A stretch of 64,000 nt of DNA, from assembly GCA_946811185.2 (NCBI GenBank), contig OX328102.1:49267619-49331618 (forward strand). The letters run 5' to 3'. Below are positions 191 to 17,242 of the stretch, in pieces. This DNA comes from Hippopus hippopus (taxonomy: Eukaryota; Mollusca; Bivalvia; Cardiida; Cardiidae). The notes beneath the pieces are model-generated. The model was not told where the DNA came from. It was given only the letters and a program-made list of their open reading frames with translations, and made no database searches. How positions within the stretch are numbered: the first letter of the stretch is position 1; the number at the start of each line of letters is the position of its first letter. The position numbers and the translations under genes are program-made.

Positions 191-234
191 ATAACTCTCT
201 GGAGTATAACTCTTTTGGAATGCGTCTCTTCTAA

Positions 235-735
235 AAGAAAGATAGAACTTTCGTGGTAGATGGTTAGTCCTGAAAAGGACTGTTGGGTTAGCTCTGAAAA
301 GAGCTGTGACAATTTGAAGAAATGACAACTTGAAGATAGAACTTTCGTCTGACAGCTTGAAGATAGAACTTTCGTCTGACATCTTGAAGATAGAACTTTC
401 GTGGTAGATGGTTAGTCCTGAAAAGGACTGTTGGGTTAGCTCTGAAAAGAGCTGTGACAATTTGAAGAAATGACAACTTGAAGATAGAACTTTCGTCTGA
501 CAGCTTGAAGATAGAACTTTCGTCTGACATCTTGAAGATAGAACTTTCGTGGTAGATGGTTAGTCCTGAAAAGGACTGTTGGGTTAGCTCTGAAAAGAGC
601 TGTGACAATTTGAAGAAATGACAACTTGAAGATAGAACTTTCGTCTGACAGCTTGAAGGTAGAACTTTCGTCTGACAATTTGAAGAAATGACAATTTGAA
701 GAAAAGATAGAACTTACGTCTGACAATTTGAAGAA
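235..735 (-). repeat. 148-bp tandem array of histone-like stem-loop units, left arm
   Basis: Three near-identical units of 148 bases, mirror of 13,865-14,365. On the minus strand each unit holds two stem-loops (AGCTCTTTTCAGAGCT and AGTCCTTTTCAGGACT), each followed by AACC(C)A, then several copies of ACGAAAGTTCTATCTTCAAG. Open frames across the array are translations of the repeat and are not treated as genes. Confidence 0.85.
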
Positions 736-761
736 AGGTAGATCTTCCGTGGTAGATGGTT

Positions 762-801
762 AGCCCTGAAAAGGGCTGTTGGGGTGGCCCTAAAAGGGAC
801 C
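762..801 (-). terminator. Twin histone-type 3' stem-loops after the left 78-aa gene
   Basis: On the minus strand GGTCCCTTTTAGGGCC (786-801) followed by ACCCCA, then AGCCCTTTTCAGGGCT (762-777) followed by AACCATC and a GGAAGATCT segment. Length, 4-base U-rich loop, 6-bp stem and ACCCA-like flank match the known metazoan histone mRNA 3' stem-loop. They lie 22 and 46 bases after the stop codon. Function as a 3'-end signal is inference. Confidence 0.7.
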
Positions 802-822
802 TGGTTTTGGAGGTTGTGTTTT

Positions 823-1059
823 TTAAGCACAACCTCCAACCTTTCTGCAGGCTGGACAGCTACTTGCTGCCCGCCTCTTTAGCCTCTTCAACTGCTGTTC
901 ATCCAGTCCAAAGTCCAAAGAGAACGAAGGCTCAGCGTCATCGTTCCAATCTTCGGTAGAAGGCACTACGAACTCCTTCTTCTTCTTGTCGTCCATCTTT
1001 TTTCTGGATGATAGCTGCGCAAGCTCGCTAAAGCTCATATCTCTTAAAGCACACTCCAT
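823..1059 (-). CDS. 78-aa micro-protein with C-terminal CPxC motif, left copy
   Basis: Unrecognised protein, identical to the right-arm copy at 13,541-13,777. It has a Lys-rich stretch (about 20-29), an acidic middle, a Lys/Arg helix (about 57-66) and ends with SSCPACRKVGGCA, a possible zinc or disulphide site. The ATG lies about 50 bases downstream of a TATA box (ATAAAA near 1,110). The same C-terminal pattern (CPxC then GC) occurs in the 88-aa protein, and the first bases after both stop codons are alike, so the two genes may be related. The mRNA probably ends at the twin stem-loop just beyond the stop. Small basic size and NLS-like clusters suggest a nuclear regulator, but this is a guess. 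Confidence 0.7.
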   Translation of the reverse strand: MECALRDMSFSELAQLSSRKKMDDKKKKEFVVPSTEDWNDDAEPSFSLDFGLDEQQLKRLKRRAASSCPACRKVGGCA

Positions 1060-1099
1060 ATTGTCTACAAGTCGAAGAGAATGAACGATGTGCGGGAAA

Positions 1100-1215
1100 T
1101 GACACTGGGTTTTATAGGTTTTCAGACGGATTGAACTAGTTGACCCATGACGTCATTTTCTCCTATGTTTTTCCCGCGTCGGCGTTTCATGCTGTTTTGG
1201 CTCCAAATTAATGTT
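1100..1215 (-). promoter_or_regulatory. CRE/TATA promoter of the left 78-aa gene
   Basis: Read on the minus strand: a block including GCGGGAAAAACATAGGAG, then TGACGTCA (1,148-1,155, a consensus CRE/ATF site), GTCAACTAGTTCAATCCG, then a TATA box (CTATAAAACC near 1,110). The same block stands before the 104-aa gene, before the 68-aa gene and in the mirror copy at 13,385-13,540. Confidence 0.7.
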
Positions 1216-1444
1216 ATCCAATCAGATTCACCGTTGTTTTTTCTATTACTAAATGTTTTACTGTTGACCAACCCGTGGGTTTGTTACATTTTCTTGTTCG
1301 GGGGATTTTATTGTTGACCAATCCGTGGATTTGTTACATTTTCTTGTTCGGGTTAGAAAAACTAGAGTTTAACTAACCTATGACTTTTTTTTGATTATGA
1401 GTCTTCTGACAAAATGAAAAGAAAGATGATTATTTAAGATAGCT

Positions 1445-1460
1445 AGCCCTGAAAAGAGTT
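1445..1460 (-). terminator. Histone-like stem-loop after the left 46-aa gene (degenerate)
   Basis: Minus strand AACTCTTTTCAGGGCT, 26 bases after the stop codon. The loop and right arm match the other stem-loops but one stem pair is lost and one is a wobble. A CATCTTTCTTTT segment follows. Confidence 0.5.
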
Positions 1461-1485
1461 GCTTTTTTGTACAGAATGCACTTTT

Positions 1486-1626
1486 TTATACCCCTCTCTT
1501 TCTTTTGATTGATTCCATTTTATCTAGCATTTGCATCAGATGTTCAATTTCATGTCTGATATATCTGAAACGTTCTCTTTCTTCTAACCAGAAGAGCAAT
1601 AAGAGAAAAAATGTTAATCCAAACAT
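1486..1626 (-). CDS. 46-aa small membrane protein, left copy
   Basis: A short frame starting MFGLTFF: a hydrophobic N-terminus (residues about 2-14, ending in a Trp) followed by a charged amphipathic helix with many Glu, Arg and Lys. The whole frame is kept in both arms, with one conservative Phe/Leu difference. A TATA-like ATATAAAAC lies upstream and a histone-like stem-loop downstream, the same arrangement as for the neighbouring genes, so I take it as real despite its size. It could be a single-pass membrane or signal-anchor peptide. No family was recognised. Confidence 0.55.
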   Translation of the reverse strand: MFGLTFFLLLLFWLEERERFRYIRHEIEHLMQMLDKMESIKRKRGV

Positions 1627-1724
1627 TGTACGATACTGGCTCAGGTTTTACAAAAAGTTAATGGTGAATGAGAAAAAATAATCAAGAGTTTAGTGTTTTA
1701 TATGTGTAATGGATCACTTTTTAG

Positions 1725-2175
1725 TTTTTTCATCCTATGAATGATTTTTTCTCTCTAAATGGAATTTGTCCCTATATCGCTGAATTGAACTTAGATTTTT
1801 TTGCACTATAAATGATTTCTAAATGTCTGAGCACTGAGTTGAACTTAGACTTTTTTTTACCCTATGTATGATTTTTTCTTTCTAAATGTCTGACCATTGA
1901 GTTGGACTTAGTCTTTTTTTTACATCTATGAATGATTTTTTCTCTTTCTAAAAGCCTGATCATTGAGTTGGACTTAGTTTTTTCTTCACCTATGTATGAT
2001 TTTTCTCTCTAAAAGACTGAGCACTGGGTTGGACTTAGCTTTTTTTATTCTATGAATGATTTTTCTTTTCTAAATGTCTGGACATTGAGTTGGACTTAGT
2101 CTTTTTTCTGCATCTATGAATGATTTTTTTACTCTTTGGAGTGTAACTCTCTGGAGTGTGAGTCTTTGGAGTGTA
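1725..2175. repeat. Inner subterminal-type repeat array, left arm
   Basis: About seven degenerate copies of the same 55-65 base unit as at 1-190 (TTGAGTTGGACTTAGTC ... CTATGAATGATTTTT). It ends in short repeats of GAGTGTAACTCT. Mirror copy at 12,425-12,875. Confidence 0.75.
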
Positions 2176-2254
2176 ACTCTTCTAAAAGAAAGAAGTTTGA
2201 CAATTTGAAGAAATGACAATTTGAAGAAAGATAGAACTTTCGTGGTAGATGGGT

Positions 2255-2270
2255 AGCCCTGAAAAGGGCT
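2255..2270 (-). terminator. Histone-type stem-loop after the 104-aa gene
   Basis: Minus strand AGCCCTTTTCAGGGCT, a perfect 6-bp stem with loop TTTC, flanked by AAAAC before and ACCCATC after, then CCACGAAAGTTCTATCTTTC. It starts 32 bases past the stop codon. Confidence 0.7.
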
Positions 2271-2301
2271 GTTTTGAGAAGAGCTGATTTTATGAAAATG
2301 T

Positions 2302-2616
2302 TTATTCAGTATCAGCATCAGTCGATTCGCTGTCTGACTCACTCCTTTCAGTGGCGATTTGCGCACGGAAAAGACGGGTCACCTGCTCAGTTTTTGAAAT
2401 AACATACTGAAAATACATCTCAAGTATGCCCTCAATAATGAGTTCCTTCATCCGAAGGTTATAACAGAACACCCTGTTATTAGCAAGCTCAGCCCTCTCG
2501 TATCGTCTTCTCACTCCAGCTAAGCGTTGTTTAAGTAAGACGATTTGCCTCCTTGCTCTTATTAACTTTCGCTCAGCATCCATCCAAGTACCAAGAAGTG
2601 GTGGTATCGTAGCCAT
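2302..2616 (-). CDS. 104-aa coiled-coil-like protein, present in the left arm only
   Basis: Unrecognised protein. Residues about 12-50 are Arg/Leu-rich and helical, probably a short coiled coil; the C-terminus (about 90-104) is acidic and Ser-rich (SESDSESTDADTE). It has its own CRE/TATA promoter and a histone-type stem-loop. The 717-base segment carrying it is missing from the right arm, and direct repeats of about 60 bases that include the stem-loop flank it (2,213-2,273 and 2,934-2,992). Loss from the right arm by recombination between those repeats is the simplest reading; gain on the left is the alternative. Confidence 0.65.
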   Translation of the reverse strand: MATIPPLLGTWMDAERKLIRARRQIVLLKQRLAGVRRRYERAELANNRVFCYNLRMKELIIEGILEMYFQYVISKTEQVTRLFRAQIATERSESDSESTDADTE

Positions 2617-2639
2617 TGTGAAAATGAAATGTATGGAAA

Positions 2640-2760
2640 ATAAATCGCTGAGATTTATAGCTTTTCAGACGGATTGAACTAGTTGACCCATGACGTCATT
2701 TTCTCCTATGTTTTTCCCGCGTCGGCGTTTCATGCTGTTTTGGCTCCAAATTAATGTTAT
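2640..2760 (-). promoter_or_regulatory. CRE/TATA promoter of the 104-aa gene
   Basis: Same block as at 1,100-1,215, with TGACGTCA at 2,691-2,698 and a TATA box (GCTATAAATC) near 2,655. The ATG lies about 40 bases further on. Confidence 0.7.
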
Positions 2761-2971
2761 CCAATCAGAATCAGCGTTGTTTTTTCTATTACTAAATGTT
2801 TTATTGTTGACCAATCCGTGGGTTTGTTACATTTTCTTGTTCGGGTTAGAAAAAAACTAGAGTTTAACTAACCTATGACTTTTTTTTTTGATTGTGAATC
2901 TTTTGAGTTTTTTTGACAATTTTGAGTTTTTGACAATTTGAAGAAAGATAGAACTTTCGTGGTAGATGGGT

Positions 2972-2987
2972 AGCCCTGAAAAGGGCT
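2972..2987 (-). terminator. Histone-type stem-loop after the left 88-aa gene
   Basis: Minus strand AGCCCTTTTCAGGGCT with A-rich bases before it and ACCCATC after it, 35 bases past the stop codon. A purine-rich ACGAAAGTTC follows after about 10 bases, a possible histone-downstream-element analogue. Confidence 0.7.
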
Positions 2988-3022
2988 GTTTTGTTTTTTT
3001 GGAGGCTGTGTTTTTTCCAGTT

Positions 3023-3289
3023 CTAATGGCAACACCCGAAATTCGCTTGGCAAATGGGGCATGCTGTAATCTTCCTCCCAAATTCGATATCAACCAAGAT
3101 GATATCCGGTGTTGTCTTTAATAATAGCTGAACTAATCTTTCGCCGAGATCTTTGTATGGTTGTGTTATACGTCGCAGTTGGTCTTGTTCCTCCTCTCCT
3201 ACGAGATGAGTGGTTAGTTGCAATAACTGCTGTCCGGCATTTAGATACTCTTGGAGAGCCTCACGTAGTTGATGATTTACCTCTTCCAT
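3023..3289 (-). CDS. 88-aa helical micro-protein with C-terminal CPxC motif, left copy
   Basis: Starts MEEVNHQLRE. A longer frame begins with a non-ATG codon upstream, so the first ATG at 3,289 is chosen. The body is helical (Leu, Gln, Glu-rich), followed by ITACPICQANFGCCH, a Cys/His cluster that could bind zinc. It differs from the right-arm copy at two places (Gly/Ala, Asp/Asn). No family was recognised. Its promoter belongs to the second E1 class (see 3,317-3,432), so it may be expressed at a different time from the 78-aa and 104-aa genes. Confidence 0.65.
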   Translation of the reverse strand: MEEVNHQLREALQEYLNAGQQLLQLTTHLVGEEEQDQLRRITQPYKDLGERLVQLLLKTTPDIILVDIEFGRKITACPICQANFGCCH

Positions 3290-3316
3290 ATTGATATTGC
3301 TTCCGAATATTGACAC

Positions 3317-3432
3317 TGCTTTCGAAGTGATCGTTAGCTGAGAGTCAAAGAAATGGTGAATGTGTGAAAAAAATAACGCGGACTTTATACGTTTAAGGAG
3401 GATTGAAATTTTTTAAAGAGCTCGGACCTGGC
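3317..3432 (-). promoter_or_regulatory. Second-class promoter and long leader of the left 88-aa gene
   Basis: Minus strand: CCAGGTCCGAGCTCTTTAA, TTTCAATCCTCC, a TATA-like CGTATAAAG, then a leader with ATTCACCATTTCTTTGA and CTAACGATCACTTCGAAAGC. The same promoter and leader precede the 220-aa gene (10,490-10,629). There is no CRE. Confidence 0.6.
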
Positions 3433-3599
3433 AGAAAGCACATACATTTTTTCCATGCTACGTTTCATGCTAATATAGCAAAAAAGTTATGAGACGTTGT
3501 ATGGGAAAAATGTAACCAGAACAAGTCTTTTGGGGGAAAAACAGAATGAAGAACTCTATTGTTTTTTTGAACTTTTATTTATTGAACTTTTATTTACTG

Positions 3600-3965
3600 A
3601 ACAGAACTAAACATTGAAACATTTTTTTTGCAATGCATCATAAAAAAATTTCTTGACAATGAAAAAAAATTCTTGACAATGAAAAAAATCACAATGAAAC
3701 ATTTTTTTGCAATGCATCATAAAAAAATTTCTTGACAATGAAAAAAATTTCTTGACAATGAAAAAAATCACAAGCAAACATTTTTTTTGCAATGCATCAT
3801 AAAAAATTTCTTGACAATGAAAAAACATTTTCTTAACAATGAAAAAATCGCACTGAAATATTTTTTCACAATGAATTATTCACAACGAATTAATCGCAAT
3901 GAATTAATCACAATGAATTATTTTTTTCGCAATGAATTATTTACAATGAATTAATCGCAAAAAAC
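3600..3965. repeat. AT-rich direct repeats at the inner edge of the left TIR
   Basis: Tandem and dispersed copies of TTCTTGACAATGAAAAAAA, GCAATGCATCATAAAAAA and CACAATGAATTA. Mirror at 11,335-11,725. A reading frame through it is low-complexity and is rejected as a gene. It could be a replication or transcription-stop region; nothing in the sequence decides this. Confidence 0.7.
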
Positions 3966-3981
3966 AGTATATAACAAATTT

Positions 3982-4638
3982 TTATAATGCAAATTCGCAA
4001 ACACCACGAGTTACACATTTGTTTTCATATTCCGTAATGTCTTTATGCAATTGGTCATACCCAAAAAACATTGTATACTCACTGTCCATATCGTCGAAAT
4101 CTCGTAGTCCTATGAATGGAGCAACATGTCTATAAGCGTCTTTTGTTGAAAGAGCTGATTTTACTACTTCTTCTGTAACATCTCTATCAAATAGAATATA
4201 CCCTGACATGCTTTCCATTGTTTCTCCGTAGGAATCATGAACAGATCCTTTTTTGTAGCGTAAGTAAAAGTTAAATAGAACTGATTTCATTTTCACAACG
4301 TTAAGAAAACTTTCTTCTGCTGTTCCTATGATAAAAAATGTCCATCGGCTTGTGGATCGAAACAGTTTACTAATAACATTGTCTTTCATACAGCTATCTG
4401 CTAAATAAGTCTTGAGAACGAGATCCAGCCCCGAATCGTCCACCATCATCGCAATAAAGTTGAATATAGCATACACTTTGTATGACTTTTCTCCTTTTGC
4501 AACCCATTTAAACATTTTTTTGATCCAAATTTTCACACAGAAAAATTTAATGTTAAGCTGTGTTCGTTCATCAAGCGTATGCTGTCGAACAAATTCTCCA
4601 TAAATTTTTTCACGTAGTTCTATTGGTAGCGGCAACAT
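3982..4638 (-). CDS. 218-aa unknown protein, possible F-box-like N-terminus
   Basis: Starts MLPLPIELREKIYGEFV, which resembles the first helix of an F-box (LPxEL...I...F), but the rest of that domain is not convincing. The body is mixed, with several aromatic residues. It lies 82 bases after the PolB stop codon on the same strand, so it may share a transcript with PolB. Its last codons lie in the TIR; the right arm keeps a non-coding, altered copy of that tail near 11,310-11,335, which shows that the arm duplication ran into this gene. Intact reading frame; function unknown. Confidence 0.6.
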   Translation of the reverse strand: MLPLPIELREKIYGEFVRQHTLDERTQLNIKFFCVKIWIKKMFKWVAKGEKSYKVYAIFNFIAMMVDDSGLDLVLKTYLADSCMKDNVISKLFRSTSRWTFFIIGTAEESFLNVVKMKSVLFNFYLRYKKGSVHDSYGETMESMSGYILFDRDVTEEVVKSALSTKDAYRHVAPFIGLRDFDDMDSEYTMFFGYDQLHKDITEYENKCVTRGVCEFAL

Positions 4639-4720
4639 GATTGTTATTTTTTTGAACAGTTGCTAATATTTTTTCCCCGACTTACTTTGAGTGATTGGTA
4701 CACAACAATGTGATATGAAA

Positions 4721-8926: not shown

Positions 8927-9772
8927 ATGAGTGAGTTAAAGCTGCAAAATACATCACCACTTAGAAAGAGGGTGTATCTGTATGTTAATCCATACACCCA
9001 CGATTATGAGATCAGCAATATACCATCAAAGTATAATGTTAAACATATCGGAAACTATGTGGGATCATTTTTATCCCAGCAACATTTAGAAGAAAAAGAT
9101 GTTTACCGTACTACCAGCTACAGAGTTTTGGATCAAGCGATGATTGACAAACGATATGGTGCGAATGGTGTGAGAACAAATATTTGTTTCACATGCAACG
9201 AAGCAGGACATTGGGCCAAAGAATGTCCAGAAAAAGAAAATCAGCTAGGAACAATTGTTTTTGTCTACGTGAATCCACACAGTCACGACATTGAGATTTC
9301 ACCATCATTTTACAACGTTGGTGGTTTCAAAGATATGAAATTCGTCGGGACACTAAATTCATTCTGCAGTGAAAATACATGGAAAAAAAGTTCACCACAA
9401 GCTACATCCTCATCGGTTGAAACTCAGACCGTAGACATGCAGAGCGACACAGCGGCTAACAGCGATTCAGAAATCTGCAAAATAGCAGATGATTTAGAGA
9501 CATTACGAAAAAATCTAAGAAATCAACAAACTTTGGATCTAAAAAACAACGAATTTTCTGCAGAACCGGGTTGTTCGTACGGAAAGGAAAAACAGCAAAA
9601 CATCGAAAAGAAGAAAAAACGAGTAACAAAGAACTATTTCTTTTACAAATCAACAAAACATGAGGACAAAATCTGTCCAGATGTGGAATTAAAAAACAAC
9701 GATAGGAAAAGAAAACGTAAAACCAAATGTGAATCTGACATCTCAAAGAAAAAGAAAAAACATACTGAGTGA
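8927..9772 (+). CDS. 281-aa CCHC zinc-knuckle protein with an internal duplication
   Basis: A retroviral-type zinc knuckle CFTCNEAGHWAKEC (C-x2-C-x4-H-x4-C, about 87-100) lies between two related segments, YLYVNPYTHDYEIS (about 18-31) and VFVYVNPHSHDIEIS (about 112-126), so the protein carries a duplicated module around the knuckle. The C-terminal half is low-complexity, with basic clusters that look like nuclear localisation signals (KKKKRVTK, KRKRKTK, SKKKKKH). It is divergent from PolB and probably shares its regulation. Likely a single-stranded nucleic-acid-binding replication or packaging factor; this is inference from the knuckle only. Confidence 0.75.
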   Translation: MSELKLQNTSPLRKRVYLYVNPYTHDYEISNIPSKYNVKHIGNYVGSFLSQQHLEEKDVYRTTSYRVLDQAMIDKRYGANGVRTNICFTCNEAGHWAKECPEKENQLGTIVFVYVNPHSHDIEISPSFYNVGGFKDMKFVGTLNSFCSENTWKKSSPQATSSSVETQTVDMQSDTAANSDSEICKIADDLETLRKNLRNQQTLDLKNNEFSAEPGCSYGKEKQQNIEKKKKRVTKNYFFYKSTKHEDKICPDVELKNNDRKRKRKTKCESDISKKKKKHTE

Positions 9773-10029
9773 AAAAAAGATTTCAATACAATATTGATTA
9801 TAAACAAAAAAAGACTGACTTGATTTTTTCATTCATTTTTTGTCTTTTACTGTTCATTTATTTTTTGTCTTTACAGTTCATGATTTGATTTTTTCATTGT
9901 ACATAAGTTCTTTTTGAAATAAAAAATATAAAAATAATTACTTCTTACTTTTGACTTTTTTCTAGTTATGACTGTAAGTCTTTTTACTTTTGACAATTTG
10001 AGAAGAAAGATCTTTCGTGCTAAATGGTT
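9773..10029. other. AT-rich convergent intergenic stretch
   Basis: Between the 3' ends of the 281-aa gene (+) and the 68-aa gene (-). It has a GAAATAAAAAAT near 9,916 that could serve polyadenylation of the plus-strand gene, and TTTTTGTCTTTTACTG-type short repeats. No coding potential was seen. Confidence 0.5.
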
Positions 10030-10045
10030 AGCCCTGAAAAGGGCT
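10030..10045 (-). terminator. Histone-type stem-loop after the 68-aa gene
   Basis: Minus strand AGCCCTTTTCAGGGCT, preceded by six A and followed by AACCATTTAGCACGAAAGATC. It is the only such signal in the unique centre of E1, 31 bases past the stop codon. Confidence 0.7.
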
Positions 10046-10076
10046 TTTTTGAAGGATCTCACATTGACATCCAGCT

Positions 10077-10283
10077 CTACGATTCTTCCGTCCGATCCAC
10101 TGGGATGATTTCACATCCACAATGTTCGCAGCAAATCGTCGAACCTTCATCATTATCATAAAATCCTTCATCTGTATCTGGACAGTTATGCTTCTGACCA
10201 AGATACTCGAGTATGGAAAAACATTTTCCACACTCTATCAGACATCTGTTTGCACAGTGAGGGCATACAAGAATTCGATCCAT
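10077..10283 (-). CDS. 68-aa Cys-rich zinc-ribbon-like protein
   Basis: Starts MDRILVCPHCANRC and contains four CxxC-type pairs (CPHC, CGKC, and CCEHCGC near residues 51-57) plus His, so it is probably a small zinc-binding protein of zinc-ribbon or rubredoxin-like type. It has a CRE/TATA promoter of the TIR class and a histone-type stem-loop, so it belongs to the micro-gene set although it lies in the unique centre. A longer overlapping frame on the same strand is in another phase and lacks the Cys pattern. Confidence 0.7.
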   Translation of the reverse strand: MDRILVCPHCANRCLIECGKCFSILEYLGQKHNCPDTDEGFYDNDEGSTICCEHCGCEIIPVDRTEES

Positions 10284-10405
10284 TCTGGAACAAATATGAT
10301 TTCATGTAAATTATCGCTGGGCTTTATAGCTTTACAGGAGGATTGAACTAGATGACTCATGACGTCATTTTCTCCTATGTTTTTCCCGCGTCGGCGTTTC
10401 ATTAA
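10284..10405 (-). promoter_or_regulatory. CRE/TATA promoter of the 68-aa gene
   Basis: Same block as in the TIRs. Minus strand: CGCGGGAAAAACATAGGAG, TGACGTCA (10,360-10,367) directly next to TGAGTCA, which is an AP-1-type site, then GCTATAAAGCCC as TATA box near 10,320-10,330. Confidence 0.7.
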
Positions 10406-10489
10406 CATTGTGCAATCAAATCGATGGTTATATCGGTGTTTTTTACCACTCCTAATTCAGTGTCACACAGTACTATACCGGTGTTTTCC

Positions 10490-10629
10490 GCCAGGTCCGC
10501 CCTCTTTAAAAATTTCAATCCTCTGTAAACGTATAAAGCTCGGTGTTATTTTCATACATTCACCATTTCTTTGATTCTCAGCTAACGATCACTTCGAAAG
10601 CAGTATCAATATTCAGAGTCAGTTACAAT
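10490..10629 (+). promoter_or_regulatory. Second-class promoter and leader of the 220-aa gene
   Basis: GCCAGGTCCGCCCTCTTTAA, TTTCAATCCTC, TATA-like ACGTATAAAGCTCGG (about 10,527), then a leader with ATTCACCATTTCTTTGA and CTAACGATCACTTCGAAAGC, shared with the 88-aa gene. An upstream ATG at 10,543 would lie at or before the expected start of transcription, so it was not used. Confidence 0.6.
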
Positions 10630-11292
10630 ATGAAGCACAACTTAGATGAAATCAGCTTGGGTGATTTTCCATCAGTGGAAAACAATGGAGACGTTCTTTC
10701 ATCAGTTATGAATTCGACAATTATCAATCCACCACCGGAGTTAAATTCGACAACCATCATTCCAGCGACAGTGTTTGATAACATTTATGAAGAGGTAAAG
10801 CAGCTAAATTTGAAACAAGATAGCATGATGATCCGAATCATAGATCAGCTGGAGACTTTAAACAGACATTTGGAGGAAATTAAAACTTTAACCGCAAGTA
10901 CTGATCAGCTCAGTAGAAATATCGAGGTACTACGTCAACAGGATCAGCGCATTTCAACAACTCCTGTGAAGATTCCTGTGGAGTTCGAGTTTGATAAATC
11001 CAATCTTCACAACTTAGTGGACTCTATCGTAAGTGTTGTGAAGAAAAATCAACCAAAGAAAAATCAACCAAAGGAAAAACAACCAAGAAAAACAACAAAG
11101 CGGAAATCTGAGGAAGATGGTAACCATCTCCACAAGAAGCAGCGAGTTGATCAAAAACCAACTATACCAATATTGACAGGGCAGGGCAAATACGGGAAAA
11201 ACATTGACAATCACGCTGATTTCAAGATCCCGAAAAAACCAAAGGCAGAACGAAAACAACCAAGAAAAAACAACAAAACGGTAGGAATATGA
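10630..11292 (+). CDS. 220-aa coiled-coil protein with basic tail
   Basis: Starts MKHNLDEISLGDF. Residues about 50-110 are heptad-like (LKQDSMMIRIIDQLETLNRHLEEI) and should form a coiled coil. The C-terminal third is Lys/Arg/Pro/Gln-rich with three KNQPK/KEKQPR-type repeats and NLS-like KRKSEED and KKPKAERK. It may be a nuclear oligomeric DNA-binding or core-like protein, but no family is recognised. It shares its promoter and 70 bases of leader with the 88-aa gene, so the promoter was copied between the TIR and the centre. Confidence 0.65.
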   Translation: MKHNLDEISLGDFPSVENNGDVLSSVMNSTIINPPPELNSTTIIPATVFDNIYEEVKQLNLKQDSMMIRIIDQLETLNRHLEEIKTLTASTDQLSRNIEVLRQQDQRISTTPVKIPVEFEFDKSNLHNLVDSIVSVVKKNQPKKNQPKEKQPRKTTKRKSEEDGNHLHKKQRVDQKPTIPILTGQGKYGKNIDNHADFKIPKKPKAERKQPRKNNKTVGI

Positions 11293-11334
11293 AAACAAAT
11301 ATGAAACTCATGGTGTTTGCGAATTTACATTGCA

Positions 11335-11725
11335 TAAAATTTGTTATATACTGTTTTTTGCGATTAATTCATTGTAAATAATTCATTGCGAAAAAATAAT
11401 TCAGTGTGTTTTTTCATCATGATTAAATCGTTGTGAATAATTCATTGTGAAAAAATATTTCAGTGCGATTTTTTCATTGTTAAGAAAATGTTTTTTCATT
11501 GTCAAGAAATTTTTTATGATGCATTGCAAAAAAAATGTTTGCTTGTGATTTTTTTCATTGTCAAGAAATTTTTTTCATTGTCAAGAAATTTTTTTTATGA
11601 TGCATTGCAAAAAAATGTTTCATTGTGATTTTTTTCATTGTCAAGAATTTTTTTTCATTGTCAAGAAATTTTTTTATGATGCATTGCAAAAAAAATGTTT
11701 CAATGTTTAGTTCTGTTCAATAAAT
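11335..11725. repeat. AT-rich direct repeats, right TIR
   Basis: Mirror of 3,600-3,965: repeated TTTTTTTCATTGTCAAGAA, TTATGATGCATTGCAAAAA and AATTCATTG units. No gene. Confidence 0.7.
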
Positions 11726-11884
11726 AAAAGTTCAATAAATAAAAGTTCAAAAAAACAATAGAGTTCTTCATTCTGTTTTTCCCCCAAAAGACTTGTTCTG
11801 GTTACATTTTTCCCATACAACGTCTCATAACTTTTTTGCTATATTAGCATGAAACGTAGCATGGAAAAAATGTATGTGCTTTCT

Positions 11885-12027
11885 GCCAGGTCCGAGCTCT
11901 TTAAAAAATTTCAATCCTCCTTAAACGTATAAAGTCCGCGTTATTTTTTTCACACATTCACCATTTCTTTGACTCTCAGCTAACGATCACTTCGAAAGCA
12001 GTGTCAATATTCGGAAGCAATATCAAT
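11885..12027 (+). promoter_or_regulatory. Second-class promoter of the right 88-aa gene
   Basis: CCAGGTCCGAGCTCTTTAA, AACGTATAAAGTCCGCG and the leader CTAACGATCACTTCGAAAGC, as before the 220-aa gene. Confidence 0.6.
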
Positions 12028-12294
12028 ATGGAAGAGGTAAATCATCAACTACGTGAGGCTCTCCAAGAGTATCTAAATGCCGGACAGCAGTTATTGCAAC
12101 TAACCACTCATCTCGTAGCAGAGGAGGAACAAAACCAACTGCGACGTATAACACAACCATACAAAGATCTCGGCGAAAGATTAGTTCAGCTATTATTAAA
12201 GACAACACCGGATATCATCTTGGTTGATATCGAATTTGGGAGGAAGATTACAGCATGCCCCATTTGCCAAGCGAATTTCGGGTGTTGCCATTAG
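12028..12294 (+). CDS. 88-aa helical micro-protein with C-terminal CPxC motif, right copy
   Basis: Second copy of the gene at 3,023-3,289, with Ala and Asn at the two positions that differ. Same start logic: the upstream extension begins at a GTG, so the first ATG is taken. It is followed 35 bases later by a histone-type stem-loop. Confidence 0.65.
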   Translation: MEEVNHQLREALQEYLNAGQQLLQLTTHLVAEEEQNQLRRITQPYKDLGERLVQLLLKTTPDIILVDIEFGRKITACPICQANFGCCH

Positions 12295-12329
12295 AACTGG
12301 AAAAAACACAGCCTCCAAAAAAACAAAAC

Positions 12330-12345
12330 AGCCCTTTTCAGGGCT
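12330..12345 (+). terminator. Histone-type stem-loop after the right 88-aa gene
   Basis: AGCCCTTTTCAGGGCT with AAACAAAAC before it and ACCCATC after it, then CCACGAAAGTTCTATCTTTC. It corresponds to both the 2,255 and the 2,972 stem-loops of the left arm, as expected if the two flanking repeats recombined here. Confidence 0.7.
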
Positions 12346-12424
12346 ACCCATCTACCACGAAAGTTCTATCTTTCTTCAAATTGTCATTTCTTCAAATTGT
12401 CAAACTTCTTTCTTTTAGAAGAGT

Positions 12425-12875
12425 TACACTCCAAAGACTCACACTCCAGAGAGTTACACTCCAAAGAGTAAAAAAATCATTCATAGATGCAGAAAAAAGA
12501 CTAAGTCCAACTCAATGTCCAGACATTTAGAAAAGAAAAATCATTCATAGAATAAAAAAAGCTAAGTCCAACCCAGTGCTCAGTCTTTTAGAGAGAAAAA
12601 TCATACATAGGTGAAGAAAAAACTAAGTCCAACTCAATGATCAGGCTTTTAGAAAGAGAAAAAATCATTCATAGATGTAAAAAAAAGACTAAGTCCAACT
12701 CAATGGTCAGACATTTAGAAAGAAAAAATCATACATAGGGTAAAAAAAAGTCTAAGTTCAACTCAGTGCTCAGACATTTAGAAATCATTTATAGTGCAAA
12801 AAAATCTAAGTTCAATTCAGCGATATAGGGACAAATTCCATTTAGAGAGAAAAAATCATTCATAGGATGAAAAAA
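12425..12875. repeat. Inner subterminal-type repeat array, right arm
   Basis: Mirror of 1,725-2,175: about seven units of GACTAAGTCCAACTCAATG ... AAAAATCATTCATAG, preceded by GAGTTACACTCCA repeats. Confidence 0.75.
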
Positions 12876-12973
12876 CTAAAAAGTGATCCATTACACATAT
12901 AAAACACTAAACTCTTGATTATTTTTTCTCATTCACCATTAACTTTTTGTAAAACCTGAGCCAGTATCGTACA

Positions 12974-13114
12974 ATGTTTGGATTAACATTTTTTCTCTTT
13001 TTGCTCTTCTGGTTAGAAGAAAGAGAACGTTTCAGATATATCAGACATGAAATTGAACATCTGATGCAAATGCTAGATAAAATGGAATCAATCAAAAGAA
13101 AGAGAGGGGTATAA
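12974..13114 (+). CDS. 46-aa small membrane protein, right copy
   Basis: Second copy of the frame at 1,486-1,626: hydrophobic MFGLTFFLFLLFWL start, then a charged helix. A TATA-like ATATAAAAC lies near 12,897, about 75 bases upstream. Conservation in both arms and the standard promoter/stem-loop frame support it. Confidence 0.55.
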   Translation: MFGLTFFLFLLFWLEERERFRYIRHEIEHLMQMLDKMESIKRKRGV

Positions 13115-13139
13115 AAAAGTGCATTCTGTACAAAAAAGC

Positions 13140-13155
13140 AACTCTTTTCAGGGCT
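13140..13155 (+). terminator. Histone-like stem-loop after the right 46-aa gene (degenerate)
   Basis: AACTCTTTTCAGGGCT with six A shortly before it; one stem pair is lost. Mirror of 1,445-1,460. Confidence 0.5.
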
Positions 13156-13384
13156 AGCTATCTTAAATAATCATCTTTCTTTTCATTTTGTCAGAAGACT
13201 CATAATCAAAAAAAAGTCATAGGTTAGTTAAACTCTAGTTTTTCTAACCCGAACAAGAAAATGTAACAAATCCACGGATTGGTCAACAATAAAATCCCCC
13301 GAACAAGAAAATGTAACAAACCCACGGGTTGGTCAACAGTAAAACATTTAGTAATAGAAAAAACAACGGTGAATCTGATTGGAT

Positions 13385-13540
13385 AACATTAATTTGGAGC
13401 CAAAACAGCATGAAACGCCGACGCGGGAAAAACATAGGAGAAAATGACGTCATGGGTCAACTAGTTCAATCCGTCTGAAAACCTATAAAACCCAGTGTCA
13501 TTTCCCGCACATCGTTCATTCTCTTCGACTTGTAGACAAT
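13385..13540 (+). promoter_or_regulatory. CRE/TATA promoter of the right 78-aa gene
   Basis: GCGGGAAAAACATAGGAG, TGACGTCA at 13,445-13,452, then ACCTATAAAACCC (about 13,481-13,493). The leader runs about 50 bases to the ATG. Confidence 0.7.
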
Positions 13541-13777
13541 ATGGAGTGTGCTTTAAGAGATATGAGCTTTAGCGAGCTTGCGCAGCTATCATCCAGAAAA
13601 AAGATGGACGACAAGAAGAAGAAGGAGTTCGTAGTGCCTTCTACCGAAGATTGGAACGATGACGCTGAGCCTTCGTTCTCTTTGGACTTTGGACTGGATG
13701 AACAGCAGTTGAAGAGGCTAAAGAGGCGGGCAGCAAGTAGCTGTCCAGCCTGCAGAAAGGTTGGAGGTTGTGCTTAA
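13541..13777 (+). CDS. 78-aa micro-protein with C-terminal CPxC motif, right copy
   Basis: Identical to the left copy at 823-1,059: Lys cluster, acidic middle, basic helix, and a SSCPACRKVGGCA tail. Its stop codon lies inside a perfect 12-bp inverted repeat (13,761-13,772 with 13,782-13,793), so the mRNA forms a hairpin across the stop just before the twin stem-loops. Function unknown. Confidence 0.7.
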   Translation: MECALRDMSFSELAQLSSRKKMDDKKKKEFVVPSTEDWNDDAEPSFSLDFGLDEQQLKRLKRRAASSCPACRKVGGCA

Positions 13778-13838
13778 AAAACACAACCTCCAAAACCAGG
13801 TCCCTTTTAGGGCCACCCCAACAGCCCTTTTCAGGGCT
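13761..13838 (+). terminator. Stop-codon hairpin plus twin histone-type stem-loops
   Basis: Perfect inverted repeat TTGGAGGTTGTG / CACAACCTCCAA around the stop, then GGTCCCTTTTAGGGCC (13,799-13,814) followed by ACCCCA, then AGCCCTTTTCAGGGCT (13,823-13,838) followed by AACCATC. The first stem-loop has the GG...CC-ACCC frame of histone stem-loops but one non-paired closing position. Confidence 0.7.
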
Positions 13839-13864
13839 AACCATCTACCACGGAAGATCTACCT

Positions 13865-14365
13865 TTCTTCAAATTGTCAGACGTAAGTTCTATCTTTTCT
13901 TCAAATTGTCATTTCTTCAAATTGTCAGACGAAAGTTCTACCTTCAAGCTGTCAGACGAAAGTTCTATCTTCAAGTTGTCATTTCTTCAAATTGTCACAG
14001 CTCTTTTCAGAGCTAACCCAACAGTCCTTTTCAGGACTAACCATCTACCACGAAAGTTCTATCTTCAAGATGTCAGACGAAAGTTCTATCTTCAAGCTGT
14101 CAGACGAAAGTTCTATCTTCAAGTTGTCATTTCTTCAAATTGTCACAGCTCTTTTCAGAGCTAACCCAACAGTCCTTTTCAGGACTAACCATCTACCACG
14201 AAAGTTCTATCTTCAAGATGTCAGACGAAAGTTCTATCTTCAAGCTGTCAGACGAAAGTTCTATCTTCAAGTTGTCATTTCTTCAAATTGTCACAGCTCT
14301 TTTCAGAGCTAACCCAACAGTCCTTTTCAGGACTAACCATCTACCACGAAAGTTCTATCTTTCTT
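13865..14365 (+). repeat. 148-bp tandem array of histone-like stem-loop units, right arm
   Basis: Three units with paired stem-loops at 13,999-14,014/14,023-14,038, 14,147-14,162/14,171-14,186 and 14,295-14,310/14,319-14,334. Between them GACGAAAGTTCTATCTTCAAG-type segments repeat several times. Stems differ in sequence (AGCTCT/AGAGCT, AGTCCT/AGGACT) yet all pair perfectly, so pairing is kept. Confidence 0.85.
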
Positions 14366-14384
14366 TTAGAAGAGACGCATTCCA

Positions 14385-14740
14385 AAAGAGTTATACTCCA
14401 GAGAGTTATACTGCAAAGAGTAAGAATCATTCATAGATGCAGAAAAAGACTAAATCCAACTCAGTGCTCAGTCTTTTAGAAAGAAAAAATCATTCATAGA
14501 GATGTAAAAAGACTAAGTCCAACTCAATGGTCAACCTTTTAGAAAGAGAGAAAATCATTCATAGGGGAAAAAAGCTAAGACCAACTCAGTGATATAAGAT
14601 AAATTTCCTTTTAGAAAAGAGAAATCATTCATAGAGATGCAGAAAAAAAGTCTAAGTCCAACTCAATGGTCAGGCAATTAGAAAGAGAAAAAATCATCCA
14701 TAGGGTGAAAAAACTAAGTCCAACTCAGTGATCTGACCAT
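14385..14740. repeat. Outer subterminal repeat array, right arm
   Basis: Five degenerate units of GACTAAGTCCAACTCAATG ... TTTTAGAAAGAGA ... AATCATTCATAG. The last recognisable unit ends near 14,735; beyond it the sequence is different, so the right end of E1 is placed here. Confidence 0.75.
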
Positions 14741-15027
14741 TTTTACCCAACCTGTCAGTCATAAGGCCTGCACTTTGAATGCTAAATCCCTCTCAGGGTA
14801 GAGAGCCTAGGAAAAACTCCCCCCCTTTTCCCTTTTTTGCAAAAAATTCCGCTCAGGGACGAGAGCCTGGGGCATTTTTTGCCCCAGAGTACCACCCACA
14901 CGGCCGCCATTTTGAATGCTAAATCCCTCTCAGGGAAGAGAGCCTAGGGACAAAATAAAAAAAAAATCTTTCGGGGACAGCAACTAGGGACACATTTTTG
15001 TCAGGGACGGTGATGTAGGGCACTCAG
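14741..15027. repeat. GC-richer flank with repeated CTCAGGGAAGAGAGCCTAGGG units
   Basis: No gene. GAATGCTAAATCCCTCTCAG occurs at about 14,777 and 14,916, and shorter CAGGGA(C/A)GAGAG variants occur elsewhere. It looks like a decayed satellite or older repeat that E1 or the LINE inserted next to. Confidence 0.55.
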
Positions 15028-15082
15028 GGAAGAGAGACCGCGGACACACCCAAGCCCTGGGTGTGTCCGCGGTCTCTCTTCC
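15028..15082. repeat. Perfect 25-bp inverted repeat hairpin
   Basis: GGAAGAGAGACCGCGGACAC continues to CCCA and returns as its exact complement after a 5-base loop (15,053-15,057). The left arm is part of the CTCAGGGAAGAGAG repeat; the right arm abuts the LINE. A fold-back copy made at the 5' junction during LINE insertion would explain it (inference). Confidence 0.85.
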
Positions 15083-15121
15083 TTTACTACTCTTCTTGAT
15101 CCTATTTTAATTTCTAATGAC

Positions 15122-17242
15122 ATGGAATATTCAGACAGTGGTACTATCGTAATGCCGCCTGAGGTCAGTGATCACTCTGCTACTTATGTGTCTATACCCT
15201 TTACATATCAGATCCAACCGTGTTACAAAAGAAATGTTTGGTTATACAGTAAAGCTAATTATGAACTGCTTAATCACAAAATATTAAACTTTAATTGGAA
15301 TATTTTGCACAACGGTTCTGTTGATGAATCATGCGACGTATTTACCAAAATCTTTACTGAGCTTGCTAAGCAATGTATTCCGTGGAAAACAGCGCGTATT
15401 CGTCCCGACGACCAACCCTGGTACGATAGTGCAATAAGAATGTTATCGCGAAAAAGAGATAGAATGAAAAACATTGCCAAATACTCATGCAAATCGACCG
15501 ATTGGCAAAAATATAAGAATTTACGTAATACTGTTAATAATATGAAAAAACATGTGAATGAAATATTTTTCAGAAATTTGGACAAGTCCTTACCTTCTAA
15601 CTACAGACCTGTCTCGTTATTCAGTTGTTGTGGAAAACTTCTCGAACGAATTATTTTTAAACATATGTAGGCTATAATTTCCTTATGTCCAACGACCTCA
15701 TATATAAATACCAATCTGGTTTTTTACCAAAACATTCTACCACTTTACAGTTAATAGACATATATCACCATATATGCCAAGCTATTGATCATGGCCAACT
15801 CTCTTGTATTGTATTCTGTGATATTTCAAAAGCATTTGACAGAGTGTGGCACAAAGGTCTTTTGTTTAAACTTAAACAACATGGCATTAGTGATAGTCTT
15901 CTTACTTGGCTGACTAGTTATCTCAAGAATAGAAAGCAGAAAGTAGTAATCCAAGCCACAGAATCTACTCTTCTACCCCTAAGAGCAGGGGTACCGCAGG
16001 GCTCTGTTCTAGGGCCTCTTTTGTTCCTAATCTATGTTAACGATATTGCTGAATCTCTTTTGAGTCTTACAAGATTGTACGCCGATGACAGCTCTTTATA
16101 TTATTCCGCTTCTTCGGTACGTGATATAGAAGGTATAATTAACTATGACATAAGAAACGTTTCAATATGGGCAAAACAATGGTTAGTTGATTTCAACCCA
16201 GACAAAACTGAAGCTGTTATAGTTTCAACGAAAAAAGACCACGGCAAACCAGCTTTTTTTTTTTTATAATACTAAAATTAAAATTGTAGATCAACATAAA
16301 CATCTGGGTTTAACTTTTAGTAGTTCAGGCCAATGGAACGATCACATCAATAATAATTTGGAGGCTGCATCCAAAATAATCCAAATTATGCGGAGACTTC
16401 AGTTTATTCTTACTCGCGCAGCATTAAATCAAATTTATTTATCATATGTAAGACCTATTCTCGAATATTCATCTATTGTATGGGACGGTTGCTCCATTTC
16501 ATGTTGGGATTCCATTGAAAAATTACAAAATGAAGCTGCACGTATTGTAACAGGCCTCACAAGATCAGTATCTCTGGAAAATCTTTACAAAGAATGTGGA
16601 CGGGAAACCTTATCATCTAGAAGGAAAAATTCTAAGCTTTGTTTTATTTATAAATTGTCAAACAATATTGTTCCTCGTTATATAGAAGAATTAATTCCTC
16701 CATTAGTTGGAAATATATCTCAATACCAATTGAGAGACAGCCAAAATTATGAAAACGTCCGCACCAGAACAAGTTTGTTACAAAAGTCATGTATCCCATC
16801 CTCAATTTCTCTATGGAATAATCTCGAACAAGAAATACGATGTAGTACAACATATCATTCTTTTAAATCAAAATTAAGAATACATACCGGGCCCTCGAGA
16901 GTTTTAAGTCTCTACTGTATTGGTAATAGATATATATCAGTAATTCATGCTCGATTAAGGAACAATTGTAGTAATTTAAACAGGGACCTTTTTCAGAATC
17001 ACTTAAAACCAGACCCACTCGTACATGTGACTGTGGTAATGGCATTGAAAATCCTGAACATTATTTTTTCAAGTGCTCTCGCTTTACAGACATAAGAATC
17101 TCACTTTTCCAAGCAACAAGAGTATTTCATCCTCTAATTACTATAAAACTTCTTTTCGGCAGTGCTGACCTAAGTCACGACCAAAATTGTTTACTATTTG
17201 AAGCAGTTCAGTTGTACATTAAAGAATCTAAACGTTTTTCGT
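15122..17242 (+). pseudogene. Broken LINE endonuclease/reverse transcriptase
   Basis: End of the EEP endonuclease (SDHSATYVSI near 15,160), a linker with a WYDSAIRMLSRKRDR segment, then an internal deletion near 15,590 where the sequence jumps to the RT start (LPSNYRPVSL). RT motifs follow: FCDISKAFDRVWHKG, GVPQGSVLGPLLFLIYVND and the catalytic YADD at about 16,079. A CxCG...PEHYFFKC zinc-binding tail lies near 17,030-17,080. Frameshifts occur near 15,668, at the T run at 16,252-16,265 and near 17,020, so the copy is dead. Jockey/CR1-type assignment is from motif style only. Confidence 0.85.

Follow-up and report, generated by a model that had tools for sequence, protein, structure and literature searches.

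Histone-type 3' hairpins behind the micro-genes of a polymerase-bearing virus-like element in Hippopus hippopus

A stretch of 64,000 nucleotides of the Hippopus hippopus genome (the window) contains E1, a virus-like multicopy element with a family-B DNA polymerase (PolB) and long terminal inverted repeats, whose micro-genes are followed by hairpins resembling those of histone mRNAs. It is quite probable, judging from the sequence, that E1 has borrowed histone-type 3' processing for the messages of these genes. This proposal of an earlier note is supported by the hairpins, by a downstream element of the host type and by matches to a model of the host's own histone 3' ends (E 3.8e-7 to 7.4e-5). 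Promoter sites retained in other copies and a distant Polinton-like contig showing a like arrangement, neither of them known to the earlier note, add to this support. Four of the five types of micro-genes combine a host-type hairpin with a flank resembling ACCCA and a purine-rich element further downstream, and the fifth (46-aa) is degraded in this respect.

Organisation of E1

The features of E1 are listed in Table 1. The terminal inverted repeats are about 4 kb long and, in the outermost 626 bases, which were compared, are 99.7% identical. The interval of 10,030 to 14,334, to which the earlier note had assigned the micro-genes, includes neither the 104-aa gene nor the left-repeat copies. The Pfam search of eight E1 proteins revealed no retrovirus-type integrase, and no further long ORF is listed in E1; neither a capsid protein nor a packaging ATPase or protease was found in these eight proteins by Pfam, a search which fast-evolving capsids could escape. 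No histone family is present among the Pfam matches for the 68-, 78-, 88- and 104-aa proteins.

Table 1. Features of E1 and their positions in the window
Feature	Position	Strand	Basis or remark
Left terminal inverted repeat	1..4010		continues 626 bases past window start; inner edge by eye
Array in left repeat	266..601	-	starts 266, 290, 414, 438, 562, 586
78-aa micro-gene, left repeat	823..1059	-	ORF
Putative downstream element GAAAGTTCT of 104-aa gene	2233..2241	-	9-mer comparison with host
104-aa stem-loop	2255..2270	-	31 nt past stop; R1 E 3.8e-7
104-aa micro-gene, left repeat only	2302..2616	-	ORF
104-aa promoter	2691..2720	-	CRE 2691-2698, E2F-type 2713-2720
88-aa stem-loop, left repeat	2972..2987	-	Rfam Histone3, R1, distance to stop
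88-aa micro-gene, left repeat	3023..3289	-	ORF
218-aa ORF	3982..4638	-	ORF listing
Family-B DNA polymerase, 1388 aa	4721..8887	-	Pfam DNA_pol_B_2 E 5e-43
281-aa zinc-knuckle protein	8927..9772	+	Pfam zf-CCHC
Putative downstream element GAAAGATCT of 68-aa gene	10008..10016	-	alignment, host comparison
68-aa stem-loop, outside terminal repeats	10030..10045	-	Rfam 25.7 bits; R1 33.1 bits, E 2.1e-6
68-aa cysteine-rich (zinc-ribbon-like) micro-gene	10077..10283	-	ORF; Pfam zinc-ribbon matches below cut-off
68-aa promoter	10360..10389	-	CRE 10360-10367, E2F-type 10382-10389
220-aa ORF	10630..11292	+	ORF listing
Right terminal inverted repeat	11305..15224		inner edge by eye
88-aa micro-gene, right repeat	12028..12294	+	ORF
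88-aa stem-loop, right repeat, then ACCCA	12330..12345	+	Rfam Histone3 28.5 bits; R1 35.5 bits, E 3.8e-7
Putative downstream element GAAAGTTCT of 88-aa gene	12359..12367	+	starts base 14 after stem
46-aa micro-gene, hydrophobic N-terminus by eye	12974..13114	+	left twin 1486-1626 (-)
Degenerate 46-aa stem-loop	13140..13155	+	R1 E 0.34, not significant; left twin 1445-1460 (-)
78-aa promoter	13423..13508	+	E2F-type 13423-13430, CRE 13445-13452, TATAAA 13484-13489, E2F-type 13501-13508
78-aa micro-gene, right repeat	13541..13777	+	ORF
First 78-aa stem-loop, imperfect, GGTCCC..AGGGCC	13799..13814	+	left twin 786-801 (-)
Second 78-aa stem-loop, then GGAAG element	13823..13838	+	R1 E 2.4e-5; left twin 762-777 (-)
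Array, three double stem-loops, 148-base spacing	13999..14334	+	starts 13999, 14023, 14147, 14171, 14295, 14319

Each micro-gene is followed by the signal AATAAA at a distance of 173-256 nt, apart from the 78-aa gene, which has none within 500 nt of its stop codon; AATAAA also overlaps the stop codon of the 104-aa gene. Neither a stem-loop nor AATAAA was found within 500 nt past the stop of the PolB gene. The genes of 281, 220 and 218 aa have no nearby stem-loop and are followed by AATAAA 145, 426 and 387 nt past their stops, respectively, which suggests that E1 probably uses two types of 3' ends, histone-type and AATAAA-based.

Hairpins of E1 and histone 3' ends of the host

E1 contains 22 histone-like hairpins, of which each terminal inverted repeat accounts for ten, and the two others follow the 104-aa and the 68-aa genes. 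All hairpins quoted in the earlier note are present on the strand of the preceding gene, and the nearest are located 21-35 nt past the stop codon (78-aa gene, 21 nt; 88-aa, 35; 104-aa, 31; 68-aa, 31; 46-aa, 25), the 78-aa gene having a second hairpin 45 nt past its stop. The claim of six-base stems throughout applies to 18 of the 22 hairpins, which possess six Watson-Crick pairs, but one position is mismatched in the two copies of the 46-aa hairpin (A.C) and in the two GGTCCC copies (C.A). The flank claimed to be always ACCCA or AACCA is likewise present in 18 of the 22, if AACCCA is included, with AGCTA at the 46-aa copies and ACCCC at the GGTCCC copies being the exceptions. The weaker hairpin ascribed to the 46-aa gene does exist, but its match is not significant (Table 1). 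CA occurs no more than six bases after the stem in each of the 18 strict hairpins. Twelve of the 22 hairpins, six per repeat, sit in tandem arrays, and no ATG-initiated ORF of at least 45 aa ends 15-60 nt upstream of them. The antisense strand also folds into a hairpin, with the loop GAAA.

E1 has 18 strict hairpins, whereas 200 dinucleotide shuffles of its sequence gave 0, and none was found in the remaining 49 kb of the window. Since the two repeats are nearly identical, the count was repeated on positions 3601-14750 only, giving nine strict hairpins versus 0 in 300 shuffles. Two-sided changes affect three of the six stem pairs among the seven distinct E1 rows, a level reached by 7 of 500 shuffles; among the nine distinct rows of host and E1 taken together, stem pairing is 100% and two-sided changes are found at two of the six pairs.

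The search with 4227 Rfam families yielded 12 matches to Histone3 (RF00032), all of them in E1. The covariance check proposed in the earlier note thus gave a result far better than chance, but the best match (28.5 bits, E 5.5e-4) is below the gathering cut-off of the family, 34 bits. Among the host histone genes, H4 passes this cut-off with 35.2 bits, and H2A (33.5), H2B (32.4), H3 (31.5) and H1 (30.0) miss it. The model R1, trained solely on the 3' ends of the host's five histone genes, found 12 matches in E1 (four distinct sequences) with E-values from 3.8e-7 to 7.4e-5, the latter belonging to the second hairpin of each array pair, and the next match in the window had an E-value of 0.22.

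The host histone cluster is represented by 58 H4 matches, all on one contig (C15), and the H4 hairpin with the following 34 bases does not vary among the 20 H4 loci fetched. The 3' end is GGCCCTTTTAAGGGCC in H4, H3 and H2A, GGTCCTTTTCAGGACC in H1 and GGCCCTTATCAGGGCC in H2B, and the hairpin lies 28 nt past the stop in H4, 31 nt in H3 and H2A and 39 nt in H1. The comparison with these ends, also proposed in the earlier note, revealed the same structure and the same kind of downstream element in E1. The first stem pair is A-U in 20 of the 22 E1 hairpins and G-C in the five host genes. GAAAG (GGAAG after the 78-aa gene) begins at base 14 after the E1 stem, and the purine cores of the host at bases 12-13; no GAAAG element follows the 46-aa hairpin in the alignment. 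The 9-mer GAAAGTTCT is common to the 88-aa, 104-aa and array hairpins only, and to host H2B, where it stands one base earlier than after the 88-aa hairpin; the shuffle p of this sharing is 0.0004-0.0014 for H2B and 0.004-0.008 when the best of the five genes is taken. The H2B 9-mer is absent from the elements of the 68-aa gene and the second 78-aa hairpin, for which the best host matches have p of 0.047 and 0.012, respectively (best of five).

The RNA-binding domain of host SLBP is represented by two PF15247 matches on contig C11, both above the cut-off (best E 1.4e-13), which appear to be exons of the SLBP gene. The Rfam search for host U7 gave 0 matches, with 65 of 398,645 candidates scored and no match in the control genomes either. 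A U7 sequence pattern matched 11 times versus 19 in the reversed control, which is the level of chance, and one weak U7 match had 25.9 bits versus the cut-off of 34.

Genomic copies, a second element and rival explanations

An exact 22-base sequence comprising a hairpin and its flank has 3492 occurrences in the host genome, versus 0 for the reversed control. Twenty copies of E1, all on contig C1, were chosen for comparison from 100 listed of the 3492 matches; they were chosen for holding an array hairpin, and hairpin-losing copies are therefore under-counted. With G-U allowed and the best hairpin taken at most 140 nt from the gene end, six pairs were found in 10 of 10 copies for the 104-aa gene, 16 of 17 for the 78-aa gene, 16 of 19 rows for the 88-aa gene and five of six for the 68-aa gene, the sixth being truncated where the fetched piece ends, and in one of ten for the 46-aa gene. 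In the 78-aa copies, the first hairpin is variable and the second is intact in 16 of 17; the flanks are conserved as much as the hairpin, so homogenisation, not selection, could explain its retention. The dN/dS values are 0.13 for the 88-aa (14 sequences) and 68-aa (7) genes, 0.16 for the 78-aa gene (14), 0.41 for the 104-aa gene (10) and 0.71 for the 46-aa gene (7).

Promoter sites are retained as well. The E2F-type site is present in 15 of 15 copies of the 78-aa promoter, 10 of 10 of the 104-aa promoter and 6 of 6 of the 68-aa promoter, and the CRE in 14 of 15, 10 of 10 and 6 of 6, respectively. No E2F-type site was found in 12 copies of the 88-aa promoter, in seven of the 46-aa promoter, or in the 300 nt scanned for the host histone ORFs. 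The sites of the 68-aa promoter also lie 248-270 nt upstream of the divergent 220-aa ORF.

A second case was found in L001, a distant Polinton-like contig and PolB relative with an rve integrase. Its only hairpin match scores 35.8 bits on Histone3, above the cut-off, and lies 28 nt past the stop of an 89-aa C2H2 zinc-finger ORF, with AATAAA 114 nt past the same stop; there is no array, and the contig extends about 530 bases beyond this hairpin. Three of the four TGACGTCA sites of the contig are within 170 nt of the ATG of this ORF, and neither an E2F-type site nor a TATA box was found in the 200 nt scanned. Another PolB fragment, L002, has no hairpin at E 0.01, and R1 gave no significant hairpin in other PolB-like stretches of the window; the same applies to two stretches outside E1 that look Polinton-like by eye.

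The hairpins could also act as decoys that bind SLBP or U7, with array RNA soaking up SLBP and lowering the histone supply, and the gene-side hairpins being by-products of the repeats. The 12 array hairpins that follow no ORF of the size sought and the 3492 genomic occurrences would fit such a role, but every one of the five gene types is followed by a hairpin of its own 21-35 nt past the stop, even the 68-aa gene, which is not part of the repeats, and L001 has a single hairpin behind an ORF and no array, though its contig soon ends; the decoy role thus appears very unlikely. It is no more credible that histone 3' ends of the host were captured by chance and multiplied as passengers, while polyadenylation at the downstream AATAAA does the work. 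This signal does follow four of the five micro-gene types, and both 3' end signals are ascribed to several invertebrate histone genes (PMC2270838; for C. elegans, PMC1924863). However, the 78-aa gene has no AATAAA in the 500 nt past its stop, stem changes within E1 are compensatory, six-pair hairpins persist for four gene types in almost every copy fetched (copies chosen by their array hairpin), and L001 provides the second case.

A role of the hairpins in DNA, as origin, packaging or recombination sites of the terminal repeats, would agree with the location of 21 of the 22 hairpins inside the repeats (one in the left repeat only) and with the hairpin formed by the antisense strand. This explanation has a minimal probability, given that the hairpin of the 68-aa gene is external to the repeats and oriented like its gene, the distances to stop codons are narrowly spread, and the ACCCA flank and the downstream GAAAG match the histone 3' ends of the host.

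Proposed mechanism and comparison with known systems

The preferred reading remains that of histone-type 3' processing borrowed by E1. Four types of the micro-genes end in the host histone hairpin and downstream signal, and therefore their messages likely have no poly(A) tail. Host SLBP would bind the E1 hairpin, U7 would pair with the GAAAG core downstream, and CPSF73 would cut a few bases past the stem in place of polyadenylation. The messages would be made and kept mainly in S phase, or oocytes would store them as they store histone messages, and such timing would let E1 proteins coincide with plentiful host replication factors and nucleotides. It seems somewhat more plausible than not, from sequence comparison, that a polymerase-bearing virus-like lineage in different animals makes tail-less histone-type mRNAs from micro-genes with CRE/E2F-type promoters, and that its members are the first non-histone users of SLBP and U7. 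The literature searched mentions no user of histone-type mRNA 3' ends other than histones, and three papers describe the hairpin at histone 3' ends, or the message without a tail, as a unique feature of histones (PMC2781718, PMC2642717, PMC1924863).

If this is true, the SLBP/U7 pathway is not specific to histones, a genomic parasite has SLBP and U7 among its host factors, and this parasite reads the host S phase via mRNA 3' ends. Expression of such elements in S phase or in oocytes would become directly testable; poly(A)-selected RNA-seq would miss the tail-less messages. Besides, the many hairpins of E1 may load the host's own histone pathway.

The passing designation as a Polinton or adintovirus in the earlier note fits E1 poorly, because the scan of eight E1 proteins detected neither integrase nor capsid. 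E1 resembles Polinton/Maverick elements in its DNA_pol_B_2 polymerase and terminal inverted repeats, and the PolB relative L001 likewise has a histone-type hairpin, but E1 has no detected integrase or capsid. Adintoviruses are defined by PolB together with integrase and adenovirus-like capsid genes; E1 shares with them PolB and a probable animal host, whereas PolB is the only one of the defining genes found in it. Like histone mRNA 3' ends (RF00032; SLBP, U7 snRNP), those of E1 have a six-pair stem, a four-base U-rich loop, an A-rich 5' flank, an ACCCA-type 3' flank and a purine-rich element at bases 12-14, and the micro-genes, like histone genes, are short ORFs with a TATA box and a hairpin shortly past the stop. 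In contrast to histone genes, the E1 genes scanned encode no histone and belong to a multicopy element; the first pair is mostly A-U, the Rfam score is below the cut-off, and E1 has double hairpins, tandem arrays and a downstream element located one or two bases later.

Element E1 and its gene content

The window lies on contig C7 of a host assembly comprising 1.07 Gb in 34 contigs, and its first 15.2 kb are occupied by E1, a multicopy element with long terminal inverted repeats, which extend 626 bases to the left beyond the window with 99.7% identity there. E1 encodes a family-B DNA polymerase, PolB, of 1388 aa (Pfam DNA_pol_B_2, E 5e-43), a 281-aa zinc-knuckle protein and five kinds of micro-genes, of 46, 68, 78, 88 and 104 aa. 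The ORFs of 218 and 220 aa matched no Pfam family above the cut-off, and a homologue search with the 88-aa protein found none. Of 936 PolB relatives, 120 were listed; among these, identity to E1 PolB reached 81%, with bivalve and echinoderm relatives at approximately 40–44%. An animal host is therefore probable, and its histone cluster and SLBP point the same way.

Adintoviruses are defined by an integrase and a capsid, and assignment of E1 to this group or to the Polintons was rejected on both grounds, neither having turned up among the eight E1 proteins scanned with Pfam. No relatives of E1 were found by scanning IMG/VR with PolB. Hairpin-pattern searches of the same resource returned 0, 0 and 2 contigs, and the two were taken as chance matches, having a common identical stretch and neighbours that look prokaryotic-phage-like by eye.

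Positions of the features, in window coordinates unless a contig is named
Feature	Position	Strand	Observation
Window	C7:49267619-49331618		
ORF of 218 aa	3982-4638	-	N-terminus MLPLPIELREKIYGEF, presumably resembling an F-box start
Stretch past a downstream element	12346-12390		Here and at other hairpins, ATCTTTCTTCAAATTGTCA, which includes a GAAAG complement and then AAATTGTCA, which we take to resemble a U7 Sm site
Long hairpin	15028-15082		GGAAGAGAGACCGCGGACACACCC and its complement, perfect by eye; lies towards the outer end in each of the two inverted repeats
Start of reverse-transcriptase-like ORF	15122-15224		About the first 100 bases lie in the inverted repeat; the ORF runs on at the right repeat, and similarity ends at the left repeat
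Two further stretches	19901-24996 and 54640-63956		PolB-bearing and Polinton-like by eye; no significant histone-type hairpin
Two ORFs	52737-54451		Look like fragments of the large subunit of a ribonucleotide reductase
TATA-binding-protein homologue	L001:7189-7695	-	168 aa; Pfam TBP E 1.2e-27; adjoins the hairpin-bearing ORF

Histone-type hairpins in E1 and in host histone genes

E1 contains 22 histone-like stem-loops: each repeat accounts for ten, and the 104- and 68-aa genes are each followed by one more. The earlier note had placed such hairpins past the stop codons of the 78-, 88-, 104- and 68-aa genes, where they were located at a distance of 21–35 nt, as well as a weaker one behind the 46-aa gene, which is present within the same range of distances but imperfect and not significant. 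Twelve hairpins belong to tandem arrays, and no ORF of at least 45 aa ends 15–60 nt before them. The notion that all have six-base stems holds for 18 of the 22, which satisfy strict criteria (six Watson-Crick pairs, G at position 2, a pyrimidine 5' arm and CA within six bases), and fails for the other four.

The possibility that the hairpins are chance repeats was ruled out by shuffling, by a host-trained covariance model and by compensatory changes. Strict hairpins were absent from 200 dinucleotide shuffles of E1 and from the other 49 kb of the window. Since the E1 repeats are copies of each other, the count was repeated at 3601-14750, excluding the first 3600 bases of the left repeat, and gave nine hairpins against none in 300 shuffles. 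RNA folding z-scores were moderate for most segments; the sense strand gave values of -0.3 to -4.1, the antisense strand -1.0 to -1.2.

The search with Rfam Histone3, suggested by the earlier note, gave a divided outcome: at gathering thresholds there was no match anywhere in the window, but by E-value 12 matches were obtained, all in E1, the best with E 5.5e-4 and 28.5 bits, below the cut-off of 34. Four of the five real host histone genes also fall under this cut-off, because only H4 (35.2 bits) exceeds it, with H2A at 33.5, H2B at 32.4, H3 at 31.5 and H1 at 30.0. The H4 query found 58 host matches, all within one cluster on contig C15 and 54 with exactly the sequence of the query, and the H4 hairpin with the next 34 bases was identical in all 20 loci fetched. 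Host histone 3' ends, taken from one 8.5-kb unit, are GGCCCTTTTAAGGGCC for H4, H3 and H2A (28–31 nt past the stop), GGTCCTTTTCAGGACC for H1 (39 nt past the stop) and GGCCCTTATCAGGGCC for H2B. The main difference of the E1 stems is an A-U closing pair, found in 20 of the 22 hairpins, where the host has G-C, a two-sided change; the E1 loop UUUC is that of host H1. Across nine distinct host and E1 rows, 54 of 54 stem cells are paired.

The covariance model R1, trained on the five host histone genes alone, yielded 12 matches in E1, representing four distinct sequences (E 3.8e-7 to 7.4e-5); the next match in the window had E 0.22, and the hairpin of the 46-aa gene E 0.34. The comparison with host histone 3' ends, also proposed earlier, bore out the likeness: host genes end in such hairpins, and a model made from them detects twelve of those of E1. 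SLBP is present in the host, its RNA-binding domain having two matches on contig C11.

Flanking signals and conservation among copies

Past the stem, E1 carries ACCCATCTACCAC-GAAAGTTCT in the 88- and 104-aa genes, AACCATTTAGCAC-GAAAGATCT in the 68-aa gene and AACCATCTACCAC-GGAAGATCT in the 78-aa gene, while the purine run of the host histone genes sits one or two bases earlier. Host H2B has ACCAACTATCTA-GAAAGTTCT, with nine bases common to the elements of the 88- and 104-aa genes and of the arrays. In a shuffle test that let the alignment shift by up to 2 bases, a choice made after the alignment had been seen, this 9-mer had p 0.0004–0.0014 against H2B alone and 0.004–0.008 for the best of five genes, and, again for the best of five, the 68- and 78-aa elements matched best H2A (p 0.047) and H4 (p 0.012), respectively. 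Without a shift, identity to the host genes over the 24 bases past the stem did not reach significance once five tests were allowed for (lowest p 0.046, for H2B). Among copies of the 78-aa gene, the first hairpin, which has a second hairpin behind it in place of the purine element, is variable, and the second is nearly invariant; this is compatible with a requirement for the downstream element without proving it.

Rfam and pattern searches for the host U7 returned nothing credible, and within the window Rfam U7 gave no match even at a threshold of E 10. Units similar to the ATCTTTCTTCAAATTGTCA stretch recur in the arrays without hairpins; this stretch might mimic U7 in cis.

The 78-, 104- and 68-aa genes have TTTCCCGC and TGACGTCA, which we take to be an E2F-type site and a CRE, 82–118 nt upstream of the ATG, followed by TATAAA. 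In other copies, the E2F-type site was present in 15/15, 10/10 and 6/6 promoters of these genes, respectively, and the CRE in 14/15, 10/10 and 6/6. Neither was found in promoters of the 88-aa (0/12) and 46-aa (0/7) genes, nor within the 300 nt scanned at host histone ORFs. Within the window, the copies of this promoter resemble duplicates of a single block and therefore represent one feature kept, not several gained.

Pooled dN/dS, computed over non-independent pairs of intact ORFs from twenty fetched 4-kb pieces and the window, was 0.13 for the 68- and 88-aa genes, 0.16 for the 78-aa, 0.41 for the 104-aa and 0.71 for the 46-aa gene. Hairpins of six pairs, G-U allowed, stand behind 10/10 copies of the 104-aa gene, 16/17 of the 78-aa, 16/19 of the 88-aa, 5/6 of the 68-aa and 1/10 of the 46-aa gene, counting in the twenty pieces only copies whose gene end was matched by BLAST. 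All of the pieces come from contig C1 and were selected among the first 100 places in a listing of an array hairpin, so that hairpin-less copies are under-counted; the case of the 46-aa gene is weak. The 22-mer AGCTCTTTTCAGAGCTAACCCA, covering hairpin and flank, occurs 3492 times in the genome, and its reversed control 0 times. In the E1-related copies L030 and L033, the 88-aa protein has a 13-residue insert ahead of its CPIC motif. Copies L019, L023 and L024, with paired repeats approximately 6.5–8 kb apart, are probably shorter derivatives retaining hairpins.

A second element and the histone 3' pathway

A PolB-alignment scan of prokaryote genomes yielded two contigs that we took as contaminants: L001, which is Polinton-like, 8.9 kb long and filed in a bacterial MAG, and L002, which carries a PolB fragment. 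L001 contains PolB pieces of 37% identity and an rve integrase that shows a weak match to a chromodomain. Its hairpin, with the loop TATC, scored 31.8 bits (E 1.1e-5) by R1 and 35.8 bits, above the cut-off, by Rfam; L002 had no hairpin by R1. The L001 hairpin, with ACCCC and, further on, AAAAAAGAGA on its 3' side, lies 28 nt 3' of an 89-aa C2H2 zinc-finger ORF, which, judging by its position, would belong to the element. Three of the four TGACGTCA sites in L001 are within 170 nt of the start of this ORF; no E2F-type site or TATA box was found within 200 nt, and AATAAA occurs 114 nt past the stop.

In E1, the 281-, 220- and 218-aa genes have no hairpin nearby and show AATAAA 145–426 nt downstream, and the PolB gene has neither signal within 500 nt past its stop. 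A mixture of the two kinds of 3' end is probable for E1. AATAAA is also found past most micro-genes, which is no strong counter-argument, because histone genes of several invertebrates carry both signals (PMC2270838). A possible link to S phase is suggested by the known behaviour of histone-type messages and by the promoter motifs; storage in oocytes would be an equally natural use.

In the histone pathway (PMC7026596), SLBP binds the hairpin and U7 the purine element, and the message is cut between them. The pieces of E1 match this arrangement, so that SLBP would act on its hairpin and U7 on its purine element, with cleavage between. Several papers describe the hairpin or the tail-less message as unique to histones (PMC1924863, PMC2642717, PMC2781718). 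The earlier note knew of no such ends in a Polinton or adintovirus, and among the papers listed in a literature search, judged by title and abstract opening and with subscription journals mostly outside its coverage, there was no case of their use by a virus or transposon. The histone 3' pathway is known, and to the extent searched, its use by non-histone genes of a mobile element is new.
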